From Actinomycetota bacterium (GTDB lineage Bacteria; Actinomycetota; UBA4738; HRBIN12), in contig DASSCU010000018.1 of the NCBI GenBank assembly GCA_035697485.1, positions 1-47,387 on the forward strand: a stretch of 47,387 nucleotides of DNA, written 5' to 3'. Shown in pieces: positions 1,610 through 16,799 of the stretch. Both the position numbers and the translations under genes were made by a program. Each line of letters opens with the position of its first letter. Positions within the stretch are counted from its first letter, which is position 1. The notes under the pieces are model-generated. The model was not told where the DNA came from. It did no database searches and worked only from the letters and a program-made list of their open reading frames with translations.

Positions 1610-2353
1610 CTAAGCGGGTCCGTACCACGGCGGGGCCGTCCCGCCCGTCAGGATCTCCTTGCGTTTGCGCTCCGCCCGGTCCAGGAACGGGAGGTGGGCG
1701 CCGAACAAGAGCGTCGAGCCGATCAGGAACATCCAGGAGTAGCGGTCGACGCTGCCCGAGTCGTGGCGGAGGTAGACCGTGAGGATCGGCCCGCCGTCGG
1801 TGAAGAACGCGTGGGCGGCGGCGAGCGAGACCCCGTCCTCGGTCGCGAAGAACTCGATGTTCTGGACGGTGAAGTCCGTCGTCGTGAGCGCCCCGGGCTC
1901 GTGCTCGCCCTTGCCGAGCTCCTCGTTCGCCTGCTCCGCGAGGAAGCCCTGCGTCGCCGACGTCACCGACTGGACCGACGCCGTGTCCTCGTCGTTGTCG
2001 CCGGGCTCGCGCCATCCGTCGCCGGGGTACGCGGCGAACGCCTCGTAGACCGGCTCGGGATCGGTCCCGGCCGACTCGACCACCCACGCGGGCTCGGTGC
2101 CGCGCGGACCGAGGTTCACGGGCGTGTCGAGGCCCTGCGAGAAGAAGCCGAACGTCCACAGCGACGACAGGATGATCATCCAGCCGAAGAACGAGACGGC
2201 CAGGACCAGGTACCCCATGCGCCGGCCGAACACCGCCGCGAGCACGAGCAGGATGCTCCCGACGAACAGCACGAACGACATGATCACGGTGAGCCCGCCC
2301 TTGATCAGGGTCTCGCACCCGATCTCGAACCCGAGGCAGCCGGCGCCGATCAT
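1610..2353 (-). CDS. Uncharacterised membrane protein of the bc operon
   Basis: A 247-residue protein with two N-terminal transmembrane helices (about residues 18-42 and 46-70), a soluble acidic middle of about 130 residues, and one C-terminal helix (about 207-225, YSWMFLIGSTLLFGAHLPFL) followed by a basic tail. ATG 2353 overlaps the TGA of the cytochrome c gene by one base (TGATG), so translation is coupled. No haem, iron-sulfur or copper motif is visible. Its place as seventh gene of the operon suggests a subunit or assembly factor of the quinol:cytochrome c reductase; that is inference and I do not recognise the family. Confidence 0.75.
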   Translation of the reverse strand: MIGAGCLGFEIGCETLIKGGLTVIMSFVLFVGSILLVLAAVFGRRMGYLVLAVSFFGWMIILSSLWTFGFFSQGLDTPVNLGPRGTEPAWVVESAGTDPEPVYEAFAAYPGDGWREPGDNDEDTASVQSVTSATQGFLAEQANEELGKGEHEPGALTTTDFTVQNIEFFATEDGVSLAAAHAFFTDGGPILTVYLRHDSGSVDRYSWMFLIGSTLLFGAHLPFLDRAERKRKEILTGGTAPPWYGPA

Positions 2354-3102
2354 CAGAGCTGGATATTGGTCGTCGGGTTCGGCTTGTCGGCGAGGTTGCC
2401 GTTCAGGAACTCCTCGACCGCGGCGTCGACGGCCTCCGGGTTCGTGCACACGTTGTTCTCGAACGGGACCTGCTCCTCGTCCTGGATGCTCACGAGGTAG
2501 TTCACGATGTCGTTGATCTGCTGGTCGCCGAGCGCGCCGGCGTACCGGATGCTCCACGAGGGCATCAGCCCGCGGCCCTGATCGATCGTCGTGTAGATGT
2601 CCCTCAGCCCGTAGATGGCCGCGTGGCTGGTGAACGGCCCCCCGCACACCGTGGTGAGGTTCGGCGTCGGGACAACGTCGTTGGGGTCGTCGGGGGTGAG
2701 CGTGTTGAGGATGAGCGACCCCTCGAGTGTTGGCCCGTGGCACTGCACGCACCCGACGCCGCCCTGGTTCTCCTCGGTGAACAGCTGGACGGCGGCCGCG
2801 CCCCGTGCGATCGCATCGTCGGACAGGTCCTGCTCCTGATCGAGGTTCTGTTCGGGTTCGAGCAGCCAGACGGCCGGCATCCAGATGACGAAGAACAGGA
2901 CGAGCACCACGCCCCAGCCCTGGAGCTTCTGCAGGAGGGGCGTCTCCAGGTCCGGGTCGGACGGTCCCGGGCGCATCGCGTTGGGGATGTCGGCCTCCTG
3001 ACGAGCTCGCCCGCGAAGGACGAGGACGGCGCCGGCGATCGCCACGAAGATCGCCCCACCGACCGCCAGGACGATGCCCTGCGCCTGGGAGAGGCCGAGC
3101 AT
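2353..3102 (-). CDS. Membrane-anchored monohaem cytochrome c of the bc complex
   Basis: A 249-residue protein with two N-terminal transmembrane helices (about 8-30 and 60-81) and a class I cytochrome c domain. CVQCH at 118-122 binds the single haem, and Met in GRGLMPSW is the probable sixth ligand. ATG 3102 overlaps the Rieske stop (TGATG); GTG one codon upstream is possible. It probably takes electrons from the Rieske centre and passes them to the CuA or haem c domain of the caa3 oxidase. The actinobacterial QcrC of Mycobacterium type carries two haems; this protein has only one CxxCH. It needs the ccdA-resB-ccsB products across the divergent promoter. Confidence 0.85.
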   Translation of the reverse strand: MLGLSQAQGIVLAVGGAIFVAIAGAVLVLRGRARQEADIPNAMRPGPSDPDLETPLLQKLQGWGVVLVLFFVIWMPAVWLLEPEQNLDQEQDLSDDAIARGAAAVQLFTEENQGGVGCVQCHGPTLEGSLILNTLTPDDPNDVVPTPNLTTVCGGPFTSHAAIYGLRDIYTTIDQGRGLMPSWSIRYAGALGDQQINDIVNYLVSIQDEEQVPFENNVCTNPEAVDAAVEEFLNGNLADKPNPTTNIQL

Positions 3103-3833
3103 CACTGCACCGCCACGCAGAACGGGCCCGACGGCGGGTCCTTGATCGTGTCGGCACCCCGTGGAGGCCCGAGGATCACCTCGGCCGTGTCGACGAGGAC
3201 GTCGCCGGTCTCGCTCACCGACACCTTGAAGCGGTCCAACCCGTGCGGCGCCGGGCCGAGCTTGTACTCGCCCGCGGTGTTGTACTTCGAGCCGTGGCAG
3301 GGGCACTCGAACCACTTCGACGAGCCGCAGTACGGCACCCGGCAGCCGAGGTGCACGCACCGCTGGTACAGGGGCATGATGCCCTCGGCCGTCACGCCTT
3401 CGGTCGCGTAGTCGATGTCGCCGGTCGGCGACCCCCTGTACTCGACGACGTAGAAGCGACCCGTGCCGTTGTAGGCCACGCCGGCGTCGTTGATCTCCGC
3501 CTTGATGTCGTCGATGTTGCCGGCGTCCACCAAGGATCCGAACCCGCCCTTCAGGTTCGGCCAGAGGAAGGCGATCGTCGCGCCGCCGAACTGTGCGCCG
3601 AAGATCACGAGCGAGGTCAACAGCGAGCGACGGAAGAAGTCACGGCGGGACAGCGACTTGACCGGCTTGCCGGCCACCTCGATCTGGCCGTCGGCCGTCT
3701 CGCGGGCGGCCCGGTTCGCCCGCACGAACGAGAGGCCGAAGACGATCGCGAAGATGTCGAGCACCACGAACGCCAGGATCGCGGCAACCAACGGCGTGGA
3801 GATGCCCAACAGACCGGGGAACAGCGTGCTCAC
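3102..3833 (-). CDS. qcrA: Rieske [2Fe-2S] protein of the cytochrome bc complex
   Basis: A 243-residue Rieske protein. The cluster motif is complete: C159-V-H161-L-G-C164 and C177-P-C179-H180, giving two Cys and two His ligands plus the disulfide pair. An additional C169 lies between the boxes. A hydrophobic helix spans about residues 5-36. A twin-arginine segment (SRRDFFRR at 62-69) precedes a second helix of about 70-90, as in Tat-exported Rieske proteins with an extra N-terminal helix. GTG 3833 overlaps the stop of the subunit IV gene (GTGA). It oxidises quinol at the outer site and reduces the neighbouring cytochrome c. Confidence 0.93.
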   Translation of the reverse strand: MSTLFPGLLGISTPLVAAILAFVVLDIFAIVFGLSFVRANRAARETADGQIEVAGKPVKSLSRRDFFRRSLLTSLVIFGAQFGGATIAFLWPNLKGGFGSLVDAGNIDDIKAEINDAGVAYNGTGRFYVVEYRGSPTGDIDYATEGVTAEGIMPLYQRCVHLGCRVPYCGSSKWFECPCHGSKYNTAGEYKLGPAPHGLDRFKVSVSETGDVLVDTAEVILGPPRGADTIKDPPSGPFCVAVQ

Positions 3834-4690
3834 AGTTCGAAGAACACCCCCTGCGCCCAGGGCCACACCCAGTTGTAGCCGGGACCGCGGAAGAACGAGC
3901 CGATGATCGTGAGCACGCCGCCGAACATGAAGAGGATCGTGAACATCGTGATCGCGATCTTGCGGTCGCCGGGCTTGTTGCTCGGGTTGCGGTCGACGTA
4001 AGGGATCGCCGCGAGCCCGACCAGGATGAACGTCGGGATCGTGATGCCTGCGACCATCGGGTGGAAGTAGCGCAGCAGCTCCTGCAGGCCGAGGAAGTAC
4101 CACGGCGCCTTCGACGGGTTCGGCGTGAGGTTCGGGTTCGCGAGCTCGCGCAGCGGCGCGTTGATGAAGGTGGAGAACAGCGTCAGGCCGGCGAGCAGGA
4201 TGAACATCGCCACGAACTCTTCGATCAACAGGTGCGGCCAGACGTTCACGCGATCGCCCTGTTCGCGCTCCACGCGCTGGATGCCCTCGGGGGGCACGAG
4301 CGCGAGCAGCCGGTGCTTGTCCTCGGCGCCCTTCTTCGGCGTGGGGACGTTGCCGGTCGGCAGCGGCGCCTCGCGCGTCGGGGTCGTGACGGCGGCGGCT
4401 GCGACGGCGACGGGGGCTCCCGCAGGAGCGGCGGCGGCCGGGGCGGCAGCTGCAGGGGCTGCGGCAGCTGCAGGGGTCGTGCCGCCCCCGCCGGCAGCGG
4501 CGGCAGCGGCGGGCTTGGCACCCGCGGCCTCGTGCTTCGCGGCTTCCTCAGGGTTGGCGGCGCGGTAGGCGCGCACCGCGGCCGAACGGGCCCGGCCTTC
4601 GGCCACGCGCCGGTCGGTGCCCTTGGCGAGCTCGGCCTCGAGCGCGGAGTCGAAGACTGCTTGGTCGAGCGGGGTGTCTTCCTTGGCCAT
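3830..4690 (-). CDS. petD: Cytochrome b C-terminal subunit (subunit IV-like) with long N-terminal extension
   Basis: A 286-residue protein. Residues about 125-286 are the C-terminal half of cytochrome b: helix at 155-176, the quinol-site segment NPSKAPWYFLGLQELL at 191-206, helix at 212-232 and helix at 244-266. The normally acidic PEWY motif reads APWY at 195-198. Ahead of it are a charged, probably helical domain (1-58) and an Ala/Pro/Gly tract (59-103) that I do not know from b6f subunit IV, which is about 160 residues. ATG 4690 has AGGGGA at spacing 5. It forms the quinol-oxidising site with the b6-type subunit and the Rieske protein. Confidence 0.88.
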   Translation of the reverse strand: MAKEDTPLDQAVFDSALEAELAKGTDRRVAEGRARSAAVRAYRAANPEEAAKHEAAGAKPAAAAAAGGGGTTPAAAAAPAAAAPAAAAPAGAPVAVAAAAVTTPTREAPLPTGNVPTPKKGAEDKHRLLALVPPEGIQRVEREQGDRVNVWPHLLIEEFVAMFILLAGLTLFSTFINAPLRELANPNLTPNPSKAPWYFLGLQELLRYFHPMVAGITIPTFILVGLAAIPYVDRNPSNKPGDRKIAITMFTILFMFGGVLTIIGSFFRGPGYNWVWPWAQGVFFEL

Positions 4691-4708
4691 GTCGTCCCCT
4701 GGTTCCCT

Positions 4709-5479
4709 CTAGAGCGGTCCCGAGATGCCGCCGTCCTTGCGGATACGCCAGAAGTGCACCGCGAGGAAGATCACCAACACGAACGGCAACCCGATCACGT
4801 GCAGCGTGTACCAGCGGAGCAAGGTCTCGGGGCCGACCACGACACCGCCGAGCAGCAGGAAGTTCGCCTGCTTCGCGATGAAGGGTGAGTACCCCGCGAG
4901 CGACGTGCCCACCGTGACCGCCCAGATCGCGAGCTGGTCCCACGGCAGCAGGTAGCCCGTGAACGACAGGCCGAGCGTGAGGAAGAGCAGGATCACGCCG
5001 ACGACCCAGTTGAACTCGCGCGGCGGCTTGTACGCCCCGGTGTAGAAGACCCGCGCCATGTGCAGCGTCACGCTGAAGACCATGAGGTGCGCGCCCCACC
5101 GGTGCAGGTTGCGCACCAGGTCGCCGAAGAACACCGATGTCCGGATGTTCTGCATGTCGGCGAACGCCTGCGCGCCGCCGATGTCGGCCGTGGGGCGGTA
5201 GAAGAACATCAGGAAGATGCCGGTGATCGTCAGCAGGATGAACAGGAAGAACGAGAGTCCGCCCAAGCAGAACGTGTAGGTGAGCTTCAGCCCGTGCCGC
5301 TTCACCTTCACCGGGTGCAGGTGGTACAGGACGTTGTTCATCGTCGCGAGCGCGCGGTCGCGCGACGTGTCCTTGTAGCCCTTCCGGAAGATCGAGCCCG
5401 GCCGGAAGATCGACTTCCAGACCTCGGTCTCCCTGATCCGATCACCCAGATCGCCGGGTGACGGCGGCTTCAGCTTCAC
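4709..5479 (-). CDS. petB: Cytochrome b6-type subunit of the bc complex
   Basis: A 256-residue four-helix cytochrome b N-terminal domain. Haem ligand pairs are H126/H140 (14 apart) and H227/H242 (15 apart); the 14/15 spacing is that of b6 proteins, not of mitochondrial cytochrome b. C71 in TFCLGG aligns with the Cys that binds the extra covalent haem c(n) in chloroplast b6 and in Bacillus QcrB, so a third haem is likely (family knowledge, not proven here). GTG 5479 has AGGGAG upstream. The split into b6 plus subunit IV differs from the single QcrB of Mycobacterium and Streptomyces. Confidence 0.92.
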   Translation of the reverse strand: MKLKPPSPGDLGDRIRETEVWKSIFRPGSIFRKGYKDTSRDRALATMNNVLYHLHPVKVKRHGLKLTYTFCLGGLSFFLFILLTITGIFLMFFYRPTADIGGAQAFADMQNIRTSVFFGDLVRNLHRWGAHLMVFSVTLHMARVFYTGAYKPPREFNWVVGVILLFLTLGLSFTGYLLPWDQLAIWAVTVGTSLAGYSPFIAKQANFLLLGGVVVGPETLLRWYTLHVIGLPFVLVIFLAVHFWRIRKDGGISGPL

Positions 5480-5512
5480 GTTCTCTCCCTTCGCGCTACC
5501 GCCTTCGGCTGC

Positions 5513-5550
5513 ATGAGCGCGAGAACCGTCGGGACGCCGCGGGCGCTCAT
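5513..5550. repeat. 8-bp inverted repeat between ferredoxin and cytochrome b6 genes
   Basis: ATGAGCGC at 5513-5520 and GCGCTCAT at 5543-5550 are exact inverse complements with a 22-base loop. The right arm covers the ferredoxin stop codon. This 67-base gap is the largest inside the bc operon, so the hairpin may set processing or relative expression of the upstream two genes. The function is a guess. Confidence 0.35.
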
Positions 5551-5945
5551 ACGCCTTCTGCCTGCGACGCGGGGACCTCGGCCATCGTGCGCTGTCCGCC
5601 CTTGGAACCCTCGGGCAGTCGCGCATAGTACAGGGTGTCGGTGGGGCAGCGGTCGACGCACACGGAGCAGCGCGTGCACGCGTTGTCGTCGACCACGAAG
5701 ACCGCCGTGGCGTTGTCCACCTCGTCGCCAACGGCGTGCTCGGCGGCGCCGGTGACGATGCCGGGCGACATCATGTAGATGCAGTTCCACGGGCAGACGT
5801 CCTCGCATGCCCGACAGAGGATGCAGTTGTCGGGGTCGAGCATCAGGTGCTTCGGTGACTTGACCCCCTGGGCGAGCCACGCCGGATCGACGGCCTCCAC
5901 GGTGTAGTCCTCGTGGATGTCGACCTCGGTCTTGGTGTAGGGCAT
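5547..5945 (-). CDS. 2x[4Fe-4S] ferredoxin-type protein of the bc operon
   Basis: A 132-residue soluble protein with two ferredoxin boxes: CILCRACEDVCP followed by WNC at about residues 41-55, and CTRCSVCVDRCP at about 89-100. Each gives the CxxCxxCxxxCP pattern for a [4Fe-4S] cluster. There is no signal peptide or membrane helix, so it should face the cytoplasm. ATG 5945 has AGGAGCGGAG upstream. A ferredoxin encoded with a b6f-like complex suggests electron input or output on the cytoplasmic side, near the haem c(n) site of the b6 subunit. This coupling is inference; it could also be a structural subunit. Confidence 0.85.
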   Translation of the reverse strand: MPYTKTEVDIHEDYTVEAVDPAWLAQGVKSPKHLMLDPDNCILCRACEDVCPWNCIYMMSPGIVTGAAEHAVGDEVDNATAVFVVDDNACTRCSVCVDRCPTDTLYYARLPEGSKGGQRTMAEVPASQAEGV

Positions 5946-9924: not shown

Positions 9925-9990
9925 TCGCGCGTCCCGGTCGGGGGTGGGCCGGCACCCGGCCGCGGCGGCGTGCAAGGAGCGAGACTGATC

Positions 9991-11079
9991 GTGCGGAAGA
10001 AGGCGCTGTGGACCCTCGGCCTCGTCGCTGCGGGACTGCTGCTCTCGGCGTGCGCGCCCGACGCGAGCCAGGACACCCTGCAGCCCGTCGGTGACGTCGC
10101 CAAGGAGCAGAAGGCGCTGTTCGTGCCGGTGTTCTGGGTCGCCGTCGGCGTCTTCGTGATCGTGCAGGGCGGCATCCTCTACATCGCGATCCGCTATCGC
10201 CATCGCAAGGGCCACGACCGCATACCTCGGCAGACCCACGGCAACACCCGGCTCGAGATCGGCTGGACGATCGCGCCCGCCGTGGTGCTCGCCGTGGTCA
10301 TGGTGCCGACGGTCTCGTTGATCTGGGAGCTCGCCCGCCCGGCGGAGGAAGGCGCGCTCAACATCACCGTCGAGGGCTACCAGTGGTGGTGGGGGTTCTC
10401 CTACCCCGACGAGGACATGGTCACCGACTGGGATCGCCCGATCACGATCGCCGACACGATGGTGATCCCGACCGGCCGCGACATCTACCTCTCGCTCGAG
10501 TCGCTGGGCGGGGGTGCCAAGGACAGCAACGGCGACCCGGACTTCCAGGTGATCCACTCGTTCTGGGTCCCGCAGCTCTTCGGCAAGCAGGACGTCGTCC
10601 CGAACCGGACGAACCACATCCAGTTCAGCGTCGACGAGGCCGGCACCTACACGGGGCAGTGCGCGGAGTTCTGCGGGCTGCAGCACGGCCGCATGAAGCT
10701 CGAGGTCGTGGCGCTCGATCCGGCGGACTGGGATGCCTGGGTGGAGAACCAGCAGACCCTGGCGCCGAGCCCGACCGACCCGCTCGCCCAGCAGGGCGAG
10801 GAGCTGTTCCTCAACCCCTTGAGCGACGGGCGGGGGGCCTGCACCGCGTGTCACGCCGTGGGCGACGCCGGCGGCGCCGCGGCGCCGAACCTGAGCCACT
10901 TCGCCGACCCGACGCACACGTGCTTCGCGGGCTGCAACTGGTCGACCGAGGACCGTGAGGCCCTCGCCGCCTGGCTCGCGAACCCCGGCGCGGAGAAGCT
11001 GGGGGCGAAGATGCCCGACTATCAGCTCACCGACGAGGAGATCGACGCCCTCGTCGCCTACCTGTACAGCCTGACGTGA
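9991..11079 (+). CDS. coxB: Cytochrome c oxidase subunit II with fused haem c domain (caa3 type)
   Basis: A 362-residue lipoprotein-like subunit. The lipobox LLSAC puts the lipidated Cys at residue 21. Two helices span about 43-68 and 92-114. The CuA ligands are complete: H189 and C224-A-E-F-C228-G-L-Q-H232-G-R-M235. A C-terminal cytochrome c domain has C284-T-A-C287-H288 and probable Met ligand M341, which makes this a caa3-type oxidase. GTG 9991 is preferred because AAGGAG at 9974-9979 lies upstream of it; an in-frame GTG at 9970 precedes that site. It accepts electrons from the bc complex and passes them to subunit I. Confidence 0.95.
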   Translation: MRKKALWTLGLVAAGLLLSACAPDASQDTLQPVGDVAKEQKALFVPVFWVAVGVFVIVQGGILYIAIRYRHRKGHDRIPRQTHGNTRLEIGWTIAPAVVLAVVMVPTVSLIWELARPAEEGALNITVEGYQWWWGFSYPDEDMVTDWDRPITIADTMVIPTGRDIYLSLESLGGGAKDSNGDPDFQVIHSFWVPQLFGKQDVVPNRTNHIQFSVDEAGTYTGQCAEFCGLQHGRMKLEVVALDPADWDAWVENQQTLAPSPTDPLAQQGEELFLNPLSDGRGACTACHAVGDAGGAAAPNLSHFADPTHTCFAGCNWSTEDREALAAWLANPGAEKLGAKMPDYQLTDEEIDALVAYLYSLT

Positions 11080-11098: not shown

Positions 11099-12979
11099 AT
11101 GGCGAGCGTGACCGTTCCTGCGACCGGGGGTCGAGGGCTGCTGCGGCGGCCCACGGCGGTCACCGGCTTCTGGAGCTGGCTCACCACGGTGGACCACAAG
11201 AAGATCGGCATCATGTACGGGGTCGCCGCGTTCGTGTTCTTCATCATCGGTGGTCTCGAGGCCCTGCTGATCCGTGCGCAGCTCGCCCAGCCCGACGGCA
11301 CCCTCGTGAACGCCGACCAGTACAACCAGATCTTCACGATGCACGGCATCACGATGATCTTCCTGTTCGTGATGCCGATGTCGTCTGCGCTGTTCAACTA
11401 CCTGATCCCGCTGATGATCGGCGCCCGCGACGTCGCGTTCCCTCGCATCAACGCCTACAGCTTCTGGGCCTTCCTGTTCGGTGGCCTCTTCCTGTATTCC
11501 AGCTTCTTCCTCGGGGGCGCGCCGAACGGCGGCTGGTTCGGGTACGCGCCGAATTCCACGACCGACCCTTCGATCGGCATGACGTTCTACGCGCTCGGCC
11601 TGCTGATCACCGGCATCGCCTCGACCGCCGGAGCCGTGAACCTTGCCGTCACGGTGATCAACATGCGCGCGCCGGGCATGACCCTGTTCCGCATGCCCGT
11701 CTTCGTCTGGATGGGGCTGGTCGTGCAGTTCTTGCTGGTCTTCTCCCTGCCGATCATCACCGTGGCCCTCTTCCAACTGCTCTTCGACCGGCGGTGGGAC
11801 ACGGCGTTCTTCGACCCGACCCGAGGCGGCGACCCGATCCTGTGGCAGCACCTGTTCTGGCTGTTCGGGCACCCAGAGGTCTACATCTTGATCCTGCCTG
11901 CGTTCGGTGTCTTCAGCGAGGTGTTGCCCGTCTTCAGCCGCAAGCCGCTGTTCGGTTATCAGTTCGTGGTGTTCTCTGGCATCGCGATCGGGTTCATCGG
12001 GTTCGGCGTGTGGGCCCACCACATGTTCGCCGCCGGCCTCGGTCCGGTCGCGAACACGGCGTTCGGCATCTCGACGGCGATCATCGCGATCCCCACCGGC
12101 GTGAAGATCTTCAACTGGATGGGCACGATGTACGGGGGCGACATCCGCTTCACGTCGGCGATGCTGTTTTCCGTCGGCGGCGTGGCGATGTTCGTGATCG
12201 GCGGACTCTCGGGAGTGACGCACGCGATCGTGCCGAGCGACTACCAGCAGACCGACACGTACTACATCGTCGCCCACTTCCACTACGTGCTGTTCGGCGG
12301 GGCGATCTTCGGCATCTTCTCGGCCTTCTACTACTGGTGGCCGAAGGCCTTCGGGCGTCGCCTCGGAGAGGCCATGGGCAAGGTGCAGTTCTGGATCCTG
12401 ATCGTGGGCTTCAACCTGGCGTTCGGCCCGATGCACATCCTCGGGCTGCAGGGCATGATCCGTCGTGAGTACACGTACCCCGAGTCCCTCGGCCTTACCC
12501 TCTGGAACCAGGTGTCCACCGTCGGCGCCTTCCTGATCGCGTTCGCCGTGGTGATGTTCATGGTGAACGTCGCCCGCACCCACCTGAAGCCCCGCGGCGA
12601 GGCGGTGGAGGATCCCTGGGACGCTCGCACGCTCGAGTGGATGACGACGAGCCCGCCGCCCGTACACAACTTCGACGAGATCCCCACCGTGCACGCGCTC
12701 GACGAATACTGGCACCGCAAGTACGTCGAGGACGAGCGTACGGGCACCCTGGTGCCGGCGCAGGCCGGGGCCTCAGACGACCACGACGCGGCGCACGCCG
12801 ACGGTCACGGATCGATCCACCTGCCGAGCCCGTCGTTCTGGCCGCTCGTCGCGAGCATCGGCCTGCCGATCATGGGGTACGGGGTGCTCTACTCGTGGTG
12901 GCTGGTGGGACTCGGCGCGCTGGTGGCGCTGGTCGGCTTCTATGGGTGGGCCCTCGAGCCTTCGGTGGCGGAGGGATAG
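11099..12979 (+). CDS. coxA: Cytochrome c oxidase subunit I
   Basis: A 626-residue haem-copper oxidase core subunit. Visible signatures are WLTTVDHKKIG at the start, the low-spin haem His in FTMHGITMIF, the CuB box GHPEVYILILP with the cross-linked Tyr and the Glu of A1-family D channels, the paired WAHHMFAAG, and the haem a3/a His pair in HFHYVLFGGA. The NYLIPLMIGARDVAFPR loop carries the D-channel Asn and Asp. A C-terminal extension of about 60 residues adds one or two helices (about 578-618), resembling a fused subunit IV or start of subunit III. GGAGG lies 13 bases before ATG 11099. Confidence 0.96.
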   Translation: MASVTVPATGGRGLLRRPTAVTGFWSWLTTVDHKKIGIMYGVAAFVFFIIGGLEALLIRAQLAQPDGTLVNADQYNQIFTMHGITMIFLFVMPMSSALFNYLIPLMIGARDVAFPRINAYSFWAFLFGGLFLYSSFFLGGAPNGGWFGYAPNSTTDPSIGMTFYALGLLITGIASTAGAVNLAVTVINMRAPGMTLFRMPVFVWMGLVVQFLLVFSLPIITVALFQLLFDRRWDTAFFDPTRGGDPILWQHLFWLFGHPEVYILILPAFGVFSEVLPVFSRKPLFGYQFVVFSGIAIGFIGFGVWAHHMFAAGLGPVANTAFGISTAIIAIPTGVKIFNWMGTMYGGDIRFTSAMLFSVGGVAMFVIGGLSGVTHAIVPSDYQQTDTYYIVAHFHYVLFGGAIFGIFSAFYYWWPKAFGRRLGEAMGKVQFWILIVGFNLAFGPMHILGLQGMIRREYTYPESLGLTLWNQVSTVGAFLIAFAVVMFMVNVARTHLKPRGEAVEDPWDARTLEWMTTSPPPVHNFDEIPTVHALDEYWHRKYVEDERTGTLVPAQAGASDDHDAAHADGHGSIHLPSPSFWPLVASIGLPIMGYGVLYSWWLVGLGALVALVGFYGWALEPSVAEG

Positions 12980-12981
12980 GC

Positions 12982-13620
12982 ATGGCCGACCTCGCCATCA
13001 CGCCCGGGCACGGCGCCGTCGAGGCGCACGACGAGCACGCGACCACCACGGGGCTGCCCAACACGAAGATCGCGATGTGGCTGTTCCTGGCCTCGGAGTG
13101 CCTGCTCTTCGGCGCTCTCATCACGACCTACGTGCTCTACCGGGGGGCGAGCGGGACCGGCCCCTATCCGGCCGACGTCTTCGACATCCCCTACACGTCG
13201 GTGTCATCGTTCGTGCTGCTGGCCTCATCGCTCACGATGGTGCTGGCCCTCGCGTCGGCGCAGAAGCGAGACGTGGCGCGCATGCGGCTGTGGCTGCTCG
13301 CGACCGCGATGCTGGGACTGACCTTCGTGGGCGGCCAGGTGTACGAGTTCACGACGTTCTACGACGAGGGGCTCGCGATCTCGACGAACCTGTTCGGGAC
13401 CACCTTCTACGTGCTCACCGGGTTCCACGGGGTGCACGTCACGGTCGGCATCCTGATGCTGCTGTCGCTCGTCGGGTTCTCAACTGCCGACCGCCTTCCC
13501 GACGACGCGGCGTTCCCGGTCGAGATGGTGGGGCTGTACTGGCACTTCGTCGACATCGTGTGGATCATCATCTTCACCGTCGTGTACCTGATCCCGACCC
13601 CGGCGCCGGCGCCGGTCTGA
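12982..13620 (+). CDS. coxC: Cytochrome c oxidase subunit III
   Basis: A 212-residue subunit III of the five-helix bacterial type, starting after the helix that seems to be attached to subunit I. Signatures are KIAMWLFLASECLLFGAL, the Glu in GQVYEF, TGFHGVHVTVGI and YWHFVDIVWI near the end. ATG 12982 follows GGAGGGATAGG. The gap from coxA is two bases. Subunit III stabilises proton uptake and binds lipid next to subunit I. Confidence 0.94.
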   Translation: MADLAITPGHGAVEAHDEHATTTGLPNTKIAMWLFLASECLLFGALITTYVLYRGASGTGPYPADVFDIPYTSVSSFVLLASSLTMVLALASAQKRDVARMRLWLLATAMLGLTFVGGQVYEFTTFYDEGLAISTNLFGTTFYVLTGFHGVHVTVGILMLLSLVGFSTADRLPDDAAFPVEMVGLYWHFVDIVWIIIFTVVYLIPTPAPAPV

Positions 13621-13627
13621 GGAGGCG

Positions 13628-13993
13628 ATGACGGTGTCCGAGACCGAGACCAAGTTCCAGGAGGAACTCGGCACGCGCGACATGCCCGACCCCCGCGAGG
13701 CCGCGGCGCCCCACCACGAGCACCCCAGCGCCAAGGAGTACATCCGCATCGGCATCATCTTGGGGGTGCTGACCGCGCTCGAGGTCGCGACCTACTACAT
13801 CGACGTCGGCGGCGTGCTCGTGCCCACCCTGATCGGGCTCGCGATCGTCAAGTTCGCCCTCGTGGTGATGTGGTTCATGCACCTCAAGTTCGACAGCCCC
13901 ACGTACGCGAGGTTCTTCCTGCTGGGGCTCGCGGGCGCGGCGACCCTGTACCTGATCGTGTTGATCTCGTTCGGCATCTTCCTCGTGGAGTGA
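13628..13993 (+). CDS. Cytochrome c oxidase subunit IV (prokaryotic COX4 type)
   Basis: A 121-residue protein with a soluble His-rich N-terminus (about 1-38) and three helices (about 38-58, 65-88 and 94-118). The helices match the CyoD/COX4-pro pattern LTALEVATYYI, AIVKFALVVMWFMHLKFD and a C-terminal helix. GGAGG sits three bases before ATG 13628. It is a small accessory subunit that stabilises the oxidase. It is distinct from the CtaF subunit IV of Mycobacterium as far as I can tell. Confidence 0.88.
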   Translation: MTVSETETKFQEELGTRDMPDPREAAAPHHEHPSAKEYIRIGIILGVLTALEVATYYIDVGGVLVPTLIGLAIVKFALVVMWFMHLKFDSPTYARFFLLGLAGAATLYLIVLISFGIFLVE

Positions 13994-14000
13994 GGCGACG

Positions 14001-14828
14001 GTGCTTCCCACCTGGCACGTGCATCCCGACGTCTGGTTGCTGTTCGGTTCGATCGTCGCGGCCTACCTGATCGCCGCTCGTCGCCACCTCGACGTGACCG
14101 GCGAGCACACCCCGCGCCGCACGAGGGTGCTGTTCCTCAGCGGCATGGGTGTGCTGTGGCTCGGTGCCGACTGGCCCGTGCACGATCTGGCCGAGGGCTA
14201 CCTCTACCTGATGCACATGACGCAGCACCTGCTGTTCACGCTGGTCGCGGCGCCGCTGCTGATCGCCGGCATGCCAGCATGGATGCTCAGGGCCCTGCTC
14301 GCGCCCCCGCCGGTGCGACGGGTGTTCCGCTTCTTCACCAGGCCGCTGGTGGCCCTGATCGTCTTCAACGGCGTGCTGCTGTTCACGCACTGGCCCGAGG
14401 TGGTCGAGGCCTCGGTCGGCTCGGAGCCGGTCCACCTCGTGCTGCACGTGCTGATCGTGGCCTCGGCGCTCGTGATGTGGTGGCCGGTGATGTCGCCGCT
14501 GCCCGAGATGCCGGCGCTCGCCCCGCCCGGACAGATGGTCTACCTGTTCCTGCAGTCACTTGCCCCCACGATCCCGGCCTCGTTCCTGACGTTCGGGCAC
14601 ACGCCCCTGTACCCGGTCTACGCGGAGTTCCCGCGCATCTGGGGCATCTCGGCGCTCACCGATCAGCTGATCGCCGGCCTGATCATGAAGCTGGTCGGCG
14701 GGCTCCTGCTGTGGGGCGTGATCGCGGTCGTCTTCTTCCGCTGGTTCGATCAGGAGCAGCGCGACGGTCTCGATCGGTCCGCCCACCAGAACCTGCATCG
14801 AGAGATCGGCGCGGAGCTCGGCCGATGA
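14001..14828 (+). CDS. ctaG: Cytochrome c oxidase assembly protein CtaG (caa3 type)
   Basis: A 275-residue protein with about six or seven helices. Conserved His and Trp residues appear as ADWPVHDLAEGYLYLMHMTQH near residues 57-77, which fits the caa3_CtaG family of Bacillus-type oxidases, involved in loading copper on CuB. It is not related to the proteobacterial Cox11-type CtaG. It starts at GTG 14001 just after the subunit IV stop. It is followed by a 49-base gap and the cupredoxin gene, which strengthens the copper-handling reading of this part of the operon. Confidence 0.88.
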   Translation: MLPTWHVHPDVWLLFGSIVAAYLIAARRHLDVTGEHTPRRTRVLFLSGMGVLWLGADWPVHDLAEGYLYLMHMTQHLLFTLVAAPLLIAGMPAWMLRALLAPPPVRRVFRFFTRPLVALIVFNGVLLFTHWPEVVEASVGSEPVHLVLHVLIVASALVMWWPVMSPLPEMPALAPPGQMVYLFLQSLAPTIPASFLTFGHTPLYPVYAEFPRIWGISALTDQLIAGLIMKLVGGLLLWGVIAVVFFRWFDQEQRDGLDRSAHQNLHREIGAELGR

Positions 14829-14877: not shown

Positions 14878-16200
14878 ATGAGTGAAGGCAAGAACCGGCA
14901 GAGCCTGTTGCTGCCGATCCTGATGCCGATCGGGGCCCTGGTCGTGATCGGGCTCGTGCTGGTCGGCTTCTCGCGGGTGCTGCTGGCGATCTCGCACAGC
15001 GCCGCCACCGCGGTGGCGCTCGTGGCCGCCGCCAGCATCGTCGCGGTCGGCGCCTGGGTCGCCTCGAGGAAGCGTGTGACCGGGGCGACCTTGTTCTCGA
15101 TGGTCGCGGCCGTCACCGGCATCGCGATGGTGGCGGGTGGGCTCGCCGTGGTCGCCGCGCCGCTGGAGCACGAAGGTGAGGGCGGGGGACCGGGCGGCGA
15201 GGTCGTCGTGGCCCTCACCGCCCCCGAGGGGGCGGCAACCACCGGCTTCTCGACCGACGCGCTGTCGGCGCCGAGCGACGTGCCGTTCACGCTCGCGTTC
15301 GAGAACGCGGACCCGGCCGTGCCGCACAACGTGGTGATCTACGACGGTCCCGACGCCGAGGCGCCGCAGCTGTTCCGCGGGGAACTGGTCACGGGTCCCG
15401 CGACCGTCGACTACGCCGTCGAGCCGCTCGCCGAGGGCGAGTTCTTCTTCAACTGCGAGGTGCACCCGACCACGATGACGGGCACGATGACAGCGGCGCC
15501 CGGCGGGGGAGAGGGTGGGGGCGGCGGCGGTGAGGGGATCACGGTCGTGGCCGCCGACATCGCGTTCGACACCGACACGATCGAACTGCCTGCCGACGCG
15601 CCCACCAAGATCACGCTGGACAACCAGGACGCGGGCACCCCTCACAACCTCGCGATCTACACCGACGACACGCTCGACGAGTCGCTGTTCGTCGGTGAGA
15701 TCGCGACCGGGCCGGTGAGCGTGGTGTACGACATCCCACCGATCCCCGAGGGCGAGTACTACTTCCATTGCGACGTGCACCCGAACATGAGCGGGACCGT
15801 CGTGGTGGCCGGGGAAGGTGGGGCCGGAGGCGGTGGCTCGGGCGGAGGTGGCGGCTCGGGCGGGGGCGGCGGCGGTGAGGAACCGCCCGACGAAGGCGGC
15901 GGTAGGTCCGAGGGCACGGCGGCGGCATCGGTCGTCGCCGAAGGCACCGCGTTCGACCCGACGGCGCTCTCCTGGCCCGCCGACACCGAGGTGGCGCTCA
16001 CGTTCGACAACCGAGATCCGGTCGACGTCGCGGGCCCGCACAACGTCTCGGTCTACGACGGCGATACCGCGCTCTTCCAGGGGGAGCTCATCGACGGGCC
16101 TGCGACGGTCGACTACTCCATCCCGCCGATGCCGGCAGGGACCTACGAGTTCCGATGCGACGTGCACCCGACGATGATCGGCTCCGTCGAGGTCACCTGA
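14878..16200 (+). CDS. Membrane protein with three tandem cupredoxin domains
   Basis: A 440-residue protein. Three N-terminal helices (about 10-38, 41-62, 70-94) anchor three cupredoxin domains outside the membrane. Each has a type 1 copper set: H150/C193/H196/M200, H256/C298/H301/M304 and H388/C427/H430/M433. Domain 1 has one extra residue between the last His and Met, so its site may differ. Gly-rich linkers join the domains; that at 311-333 contains natural GGGGS-like repeats. AGGAG lies upstream of ATG 14878. It could carry electrons to the CuA site or hold copper for CtaG; position supports both. I know no named protein with this exact layout. Confidence 0.85.
   Translation: MSEGKNRQSLLLPILMPIGALVVIGLVLVGFSRVLLAISHSAATAVALVAAASIVAVGAWVASRKRVTGATLFSMVAAVTGIAMVAGGLAVVAAPLEHEGEGGGPGGEVVVALTAPEGAATTGFSTDALSAPSDVPFTLAFENADPAVPHNVVIYDGPDAEAPQLFRGELVTGPATVDYAVEPLAEGEFFFNCEVHPTTMTGTMTAAPGGGEGGGGGGEGITVVAADIAFDTDTIELPADAPTKITLDNQDAGTPHNLAIYTDDTLDESLFVGEIATGPVSVVYDIPPIPEGEYYFHCDVHPNMSGTVVVAGEGGAGGGGSGGGGGSGGGGGGEEPPDEGGGRSEGTAAASVVAEGTAFDPTALSWPADTEVALTFDNRDPVDVAGPHNVSVYDGDTALFQGELIDGPATVDYSIPPMPAGTYEFRCDVHPTMIGSVEVT
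15816..15876 (+). repeat. Glycine-codon-rich low-complexity linker DNA
   Basis: This stretch of GGT/GGC/GGA and single serine codons encodes the linker between cupredoxin domains 2 and 3, with GGGGS-like units. Another Gly-rich linker lies at about 15500-15540. Such DNA can slip, so linker length may vary between strains. Confidence 0.6.
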
Positions 16201-16799
16201 CGACCCCCGTCGAGCCACCGGCGACCGCCCCGCGGGATGCGGACGAGGCGCCCGCGAGGCGTCGCCTGGGACGTGTCGCGGTCGTCGTCGCGGTGATCGT
16301 CGTCGTCGCCGGCCTCGTTGCGTTCGCCCTGCGACCCACGACCGATCCCCGCGAGGAGGGGGGCGTCGCCGAGCTCGACGAACCGTTCCCCGGTCTCGAG
16401 GGGGAGGCGGTCGTCGGGCCGCCGATCGACACGGGGTCGATGGAGTGGTCGGTGCTCGTCGTGAACGTCTGGGCGACGTGGTGCGAGCCGTGCCGACGTG
16501 AGCAGCCCGCCCTGCAGCAGGTGCAGGCCGACTACGAGGGGCTGGCCGTCGGGTTCGTCGGCATCGACTACCGCGACGACCGAGCCGCCGCCCAGCGGTG
16601 GATCGAGGACTTCGGTGTCACCTACCAGAGCCTGTTCGACCCCGAAGGGCGAACGGCCTCGACGCTGGGGTTCCCGTTCCTGCCCGACACGTACGTGGTC
16701 GATGCTTCGGGCACGATGCGGTACGCGGTGTACGGGGAGACGAGCGCCGCGGAGCTCTCCGGGCTGATCGACGAGGTGCTCGCCGAAGGCGGTGCCTAG
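16155..16799 (+). CDS. Membrane-anchored TlpA/ResA-like thioredoxin
   Basis: A thioredoxin-fold protein of up to 214 residues with one N-terminal helix (about 39-59, VAVVVAVIVVVAGLVAFAL) and the active site WCEPC in NVWATWCEPCRREQP near 105-119. The later FLPDTYVVDASG carries the cis-Pro loop of the AhpC-TSA/Redoxin family. It probably reduces apocytochrome c or CuA cysteines, fed by CcdA. The start is unclear: ATG 16155 overlaps the cupredoxin gene by 46 bases, while a CTG at 16197 overlaps its stop and has GAGG five bases upstream. Its stop shares the palindrome CTAG with the convergent ctaA-ctaB stop. Confidence 0.85.
   Translation: MRRAPDDDRLRRGHLTTPVEPPATAPRDADEAPARRRLGRVAVVVAVIVVVAGLVAFALRPTTDPREEGGVAELDEPFPGLEGEAVVGPPIDTGSMEWSVLVVNVWATWCEPCRREQPALQQVQADYEGLAVGFVGIDYRDDRAAAQRWIEDFGVTYQSLFDPEGRTASTLGFPFLPDTYVVDASGTMRYAVYGETSAAELSGLIDEVLAEGGA

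Follow-up and report, generated by a model that had tools for sequence, protein, structure and literature searches.

Organization of the oxidase locus

The window, by which we mean the whole 47,387 nt stretch of DNA that was analysed, carries on its forward strand the cytochrome oxidase genes coxB, coxA, coxC, coxD and ctaG, followed by a gene for a 440 aa cupredoxin protein and by a gene for a TlpA/ResA-like thioredoxin (Table 1). CoxB contains a CuA motif as well as a fused haem c domain with a CxxCH motif, and the operon is thus of the caa3 type. The interval given for the TlpA-like gene is that of its longest ORF, which overlaps the cupredoxin stop, and the true start is possibly later. 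A CtaA/CtaB gene on the minus strand comes after it, and CcdA-like, ResB and CcsA genes are also found on the plus strand of the window. The genes of a bc complex are oriented divergently from the caa3 operon; cytochrome b is split here, and a 4Fe-4S dicluster protein is encoded alongside. With a conventional bc-to-caa3 chain present in the window, the cupredoxin is therefore best seen as an addition to it and not as a substitute.

The same genome contains a second oxidase cluster (L182, C64:88000-106000), with a CoxB that lacks haem c and a second cytochrome b alongside, and elsewhere (L061:8802-10214, contig C29) a multicopper-oxidase-like domain (Cu-oxidase_3/Cu-oxidase_2) followed by a Cupredoxin_1 domain. 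Alternative complex III was rejected as the electron donor, as there is no NrfD match in the window's own genome. A plasmid search gave no match.

Table 1. Features of the caa3 oxidase locus and of the anchored triple cupredoxin
Feature	Position	Strand	Evidence and details
bc complex genes: cytochrome c, Rieske, cytochrome b in two parts, 4Fe-4S protein	2353..5945	-	Pfam
CoxB, caa3 type	9970..11079	+	CuA domain (CAEFCGLQHGRM) and fused haem c domain (CTACH); Pfam COX2, COX2_TM, Cytochrom_C; motifs
CoxA with C-terminal subunit-IV-like hairpin	11099..12979	+	Pfam COX1, Cyt_c_ox_IV
CoxC (start approximate)	12997..13620	+	Pfam COX3
CoxD, prokaryotic subunit IV	13628..13993	+	Pfam COX4_pro
CtaG, Caa3_CtaG type assembly factor	14001..14828	+	Pfam PF09678, E 4.9e-48
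Triple cupredoxin with three-helix anchor (whole ORF)	14878..16200	+	440 aa; Pfam, AlphaFold
Three-transmembrane-helix anchor, motif FSRVLL	14896..15156	+	TM 7-37, 40-63, 69-93 (AlphaFold helices); profile A1
Cupredoxin domain 1	15205..15501	+	H150, C193, H196, M200; C-x2-H-x3-M
Cupredoxin domain 2	15529..15813	+	H256, C298, H301, M304; C-x2-H-x2-M
Disordered Gly/Ser-rich linker, domains 2-3	15814..15912	+	GGGGSGGGGGSGGGGGG...
Cupredoxin domain 3	15913..16197	+	H388, C427, H430, M433; copy of domain-2-type domain
TlpA/ResA/DsbE-like membrane thioredoxin	16155..16799	+	Pfam AhpC-TSA/Redoxin; NCBIfam DsbE family

The cupredoxin protein and its copper sites

The cupredoxin ORF has an ATG start preceded by AGGAG and begins 49 bases downstream of ctaG. 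Its product matches the Pfam family Cupredoxin_1 (PF13473) three times (106.9 bits, E-value 6.5e-31, with a cut-off of 27), and in the AlphaFold model (mean pLDDT 83.6, 28 sequences in the alignment) the three N-terminal helices are followed by three beta domains with pLDDT above 90. Disorder is predicted at residues 94-106, 211-217 and 315-344, and the mutual placement of the domains is undefined in this model (pTM 0.42). The Pfam matches, the AlphaFold helices and the gene neighbours all bear out the sequence-only reading of this gene as a three-domain cupredoxin on a three-helix anchor within an oxidase operon, and the full type 1 copper set that it assigned to each domain is likewise present, since domains 1, 2 and 3 all have the complete His/Cys/His/Met ligands expected in the sequence of a blue copper protein. 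Of the GGGGS-like linkers that it described, the long Gly/Ser-rich one is found only between domains 2 and 3 (about residues 313-345), whereas domains 1 and 2 are joined by a short Gly-rich stretch.

The top Foldseek matches of the model are multi-cupredoxin proteins, for example NirK and laccases. The PDB was searched with a single domain, the results of a whole-protein query being dominated by scFv linkers, and auracyanin, plastocyanin and amicyanin are among the nearest sequence relatives of known structure. The window domains share with this group both the fold and the His-Cys-His-Met set, and the loop spacing of amicyanin is that of domains 2 and 3; the window protein differs in its tandem domains, its polytopic anchor and the C-x2-H-x3-M spacing of domain 1. 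The score against the NCBIfam amicyanin equivalog TIGR02657 is well below the cut-off (40.7 versus 110.2 bits), and neither Sco (PF02630) nor PCuAC (PF04314) is among the Pfam matches of the protein. The anchor gave no match in Pfam and no relative in the PDB.

The Cys-His-Met loop is complete in all 85 homologous domains detected, with four different spacings: C-x2-H-x2-M (38 domains), C-x2-H-x3-M (31), C-x4-H-x4-M (10) and C-x4-H-x3-M (6). Every variant retains all four ligand residues, and the last two, which resemble loops of the auracyanin/plastocyanin type, occur on the same anchor in other families; the copper loop is exchanged, and the anchor is kept. The Met of domain 1 had been singled out as shifted, and the spacing is indeed as described, but it is no oddity, being the norm for domain 1, where the four ligand positions do not vary among 28 aligned anchored cupredoxins. 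A degenerate site was ruled out on account of this frequency and conservation.

The number of cupredoxin domains is three in the window protein, two in most proteins of the window's order and one in most other families. Domain 1 groups with other first domains in a domain tree and domains 2 and 3 both fall inside the second-domain clade, so that domain 3 derives from duplication of a domain-2-type domain. A relative (G010) probably encodes a second three-domain version (L048:1236-2436), with a frameshift in domain 1 that is either an assembly error or real.

Distribution and genomic context of the anchor

A search of 60 relatives placed the cupredoxin gene at the same position in nearly every family member, within the conserved order coxB-coxA-coxC-coxD-ctaG-cupredoxin-tlpA and with ctaB converging. 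A profile restricted to the three-helix anchor (A1, motif FSR[IV]LL) was then run on 296 genomes sampled across Actinomycetota and found matches in 88 of them (about 30 %), usually one per genome. Cox/cta genes adjoin 84 of the 86 anchor ORFs examined, the remaining two being at contig ends. The gene directly upstream is ctaG in 56 of these 86 and coxD in 10, and most of the ORFs with neither are located immediately 5′ of coxB. We use the three-helix anchor to define a family of anchored oxidase-operon cupredoxins, to which the window protein belongs both by its match to the profile and by its position next to cox/cta genes. The sequence-only reading would have been refuted by homologues lying mainly outside oxidase operons; the result is the opposite, and the link with the oxidase is strongly supported. 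The anchor is a component, widespread though unnamed, of actinobacterial oxidase operons.

An architecture unique to the window is refuted, one- and two-domain proteins on the same anchor being common. One match from Chloroflexi begins with a lipoprotein-like segment and lacks the anchor. Next to the anchored cupredoxin of family f4, four loci (L051, L053, L056 and L060) have an additional, divergent CtaG gene.

Fusions, ligand loss and domain loss

Ilumatobacter-like and other families encode a four-helix subunit-IV-like module and the anchor in one ORF. The assignment of the module rests on Pfam, hhalign and hmmsearch: its best member matches Pfam Cyt_c_ox_IV with an E-value of 2.9e-5, just under the curated cut-off, hhalign pairs it with the CoxA subunit-IV tail (94.7 %, E-value 6e-8), and its profile also retrieves CoxA tails; a PDB search gave no relative. 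The fused anchor is homologous to that of the window protein (hhalign E-value 3.7e-17). No other evidence speaks as strongly for the anchor being part of the oxidase, or docked on it, as does this gene fusion with an oxidase-subunit-like module. Physical association of the protein with the oxidase is, in our view, highly probable.

The part that follows the anchor is variable. Single ORFs at L040:6069-8597 and L132:5558-7234 consist of the module, the anchor and a fully liganded cupredoxin, nine Ilumatobacter-like genomes have the module, the anchor and a beta domain in which all copper ligands are lost, and the fusions of families f44, f66 and f70 stop after the anchor, with no cupredoxin. 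The Ilumatobacter-like beta domain matches cupredoxins in Foldseek, in a low-confidence model (mean pLDDT 58.8) and with weak profile-profile support. The persistence of the anchor where the copper ligands or the entire cupredoxin are missing implies that it has a role independent of copper. We note that the ligand-less form (L133, L142, L143, L148, L152, L153, L156, L158 and L161) keeps two invariant cysteines and that these loci adjoin a divergent second CoxA-like gene, while at L136, L146, L151, L154, L160 and L163 the module and anchor, with no cupredoxin, are directly 5′ of coxB.

A different fusion is found in three relatives from the window's order (L053:3156-4211, L056:159-1205 and L187:1591-2721), in which the CoxB of a second oxidase is composed of COX2 and a C-terminal cupredoxin that replaces haem c and has complete ligands (HNFAIY ... 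CDVHGPAM). This cupredoxin matches the model of the anchored domains with an E-value of about 1e-26 and forms its own clade in the tree. In the window's order, then, a copper domain can be wired permanently to CuA, and this speaks more for electron transfer than for metal delivery.

Relationship to known systems

The closest parallels are found in two described proteins. AcoP is a membrane-anchored cupredoxin that binds both the oxidase and cytochrome c and supports oxidase activity (PMC4059628), and the window protein resembles it in being a membrane-anchored cupredoxin encoded in an oxidase gene cluster. As described, however, AcoP crosses the membrane once and is a single-domain protein from a different phylum, with no three-helix anchor, and its loop is Cys-x6-His followed by His-x4-Met (PMC4059628, PMC5328820), in contrast to the C-x2-H-x2/3-M of the window domains. 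In haloarchaeal ba3 operons a halocyanin is fused to oxidase subunit IIa and encoded beside subunit II (PMC3128077), so that here too a blue-copper redox partner is joined to an oxidase membrane segment. That oxidase is of the B-type and its partner has one copper domain with one helix C-terminal to it, whereas the present family is associated with an A-type caa3 oxidase and has its three helices at the N-terminal end, together with one to three domains.

Other relationships are less close. Sco and PCuAC are also anchored or periplasmic copper proteins that serve cytochrome oxidase, but the ligand set of the window protein is a different one, of type 1. A module like actinobacterial subunit IV (Cyt_c_ox_IV, CtaF) is fused to the anchor in several families, although the anchor proper is something other than subunit IV. 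Cupredoxins bound to the membrane are mentioned, together with TlpA, as occurring at oxidases in a 2021 paper on iron oxidizers (PMC8239418). The sequence-only reading knew of no described protein with this arrangement, and for the three-helix anchor form, with one, two or three domains, we found no description in a literature of incomplete coverage that leaves most subscription papers outside; the kind, by contrast, is known from AcoP and the halocyanin-IIa fusions.

Possible roles of the anchored cupredoxins

The explanation that we favour, and to which we give about an even chance, is that the protein is an accessory subunit or a permanently bound partner of the caa3-type oxidase, working as an electron relay. 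The three-helix anchor would dock in the membrane at the oxidase, beside subunit IV/CoxA, and the type 1 copper domains would lie on the outer face, near CoxB's CuA and haem c domains, forming a tethered one-electron relay by which electrons could pass from the bc complex, or from its cytochrome c, to the haem c/CuA entry or be buffered there. The architecture, the intact ligands, the operon position, the anchor's deep conservation alongside the oxidase, the subunit-IV-like fusions and the CuA-subunit fusion in relatives are established; that the protein binds the oxidase and is loaded with copper, what its redox potential is and which way the electrons flow are matters of inference. The relay function, taken by itself, we regard as evenly balanced. 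Such a relay is not required, because CoxB has its own haem c and the bc complex its cytochrome c, and the alternation of the metal loop between amicyanin-like and auracyanin-like spacing also counts against it, as do the missing ligands of the nine Ilumatobacter-like genomes, the missing cupredoxin of families f44, f66 and f70 and the Pfam score of the subunit-IV-like module below the curated threshold. CxxCH is kept in every complete main-operon CoxB. The copper relay would run parallel to cytochrome c and not instead of it: of the two forms of shuttle in the sequence-only reading, a tethered one that aids cytochrome c is the best functional guess, whereas a shuttle that replaces it is at odds with the haem c of CoxB and the cytochrome c of the bc complex.

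Copper delivery, which takes in the copper store feeding CtaG that the sequence-only reading also offered, is the most serious competitor, although we think it rather unlikely. The anchored cupredoxins would then take up copper outside the membrane and pass it on, either to CtaG (destined for CuB) or to CoxB (for CuA), in place of Sco and PCuAC, with the TlpA-like protein keeping cysteines reduced. The position of the gene directly between ctaG and the TlpA-like gene fits this, although the latter is also explained by cytochrome c maturation, given its neighbours ResB and CcsA. Sco and PCuAC were not detected in the window genome, a draft that is 95.6 % complete and in which absences are therefore soft, and are present in few members of its family; it is this lack of detectable Sco and PCuAC that keeps delivery a live rival. 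Among 84 classified genomes, PCuAC is present in 17 of the 69 with liganded domains as against 10 of the 15 without (Fisher P 0.004), and Sco in 23 and 11, respectively (P 0.008), but the trend depends on phylogeny, with a P value of 0.25 at the family level, and family f12 has everything. Delivery also sits poorly with the 10 operons in which the gene follows coxD with no ctaG directly upstream, and with the f26 type, which is far from ctaG. Type 1 sites normally bind copper tightly, and domains permanently fused to CoxB or to the subunit-IV-like module would make poor metal shuttles. Caa3_CtaG is linked to oxidase copper trafficking in Bacillus, which speaks for delivery, and the literature leaves open whether its target is CuA, CuB or both (PMC13344008; PMC9145763).

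A structural role is improbable, in spite of features that point to it. The anchor could clamp CoxA/subunit IV or the bc-oxidase interface and so stabilize a supercomplex, the beta domains being protein-binding spacers in which copper is incidental; it is the best-conserved part of the protein, is retained where the cupredoxin is ligand-less or lost and is fused to the subunit-IV-like module. The completeness of the copper loop throughout the detected domains outside the f26 type, and the invariance of the domain 1 ligands, argue the other way, as a mere spacer would not be expected to keep its copper ligands. That the protein serves in copper storage or detoxification, with its operon location a coincidence, we consider very improbable indeed: there are as many as three copper sites per chain, and a contribution to copper tolerance has been proposed for AcoP and rusticyanin (PMC5328820), but most homologues outside the window's order have one site only, and a coincidence is hard to reconcile with the near-exclusive linkage to oxidase genes and the fusions to oxidase modules.

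Returning to the oxidase-bound relay, a bolder form of it may be put forward more tentatively, namely that the anchor is an unrecognized integral subunit of A-type oxidases in a large part of Actinomycetota, and that its copper domains could be a built-in electron-entry path beside haem c, tripled here and silenced or lost elsewhere. Few respiratory enzymes have been studied as closely as cytochrome oxidase, and yet nearly a third of the sampled Actinomycetota have an unnamed anchor protein, mostly with type 1 copper, in its operon. If this protein is a subunit, then the textbook composition of the oxidase and the entry of electrons by cytochrome c only would be incomplete for the carriers; should it instead donate copper, this would go some way to explaining how the oxidase is metallated where Sco and PCuAC are not detected. 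The same anchor carries three, two or one copper domains, a ligand-less one or none, and this diversity amounts to a natural experiment, by which the question may be tested.
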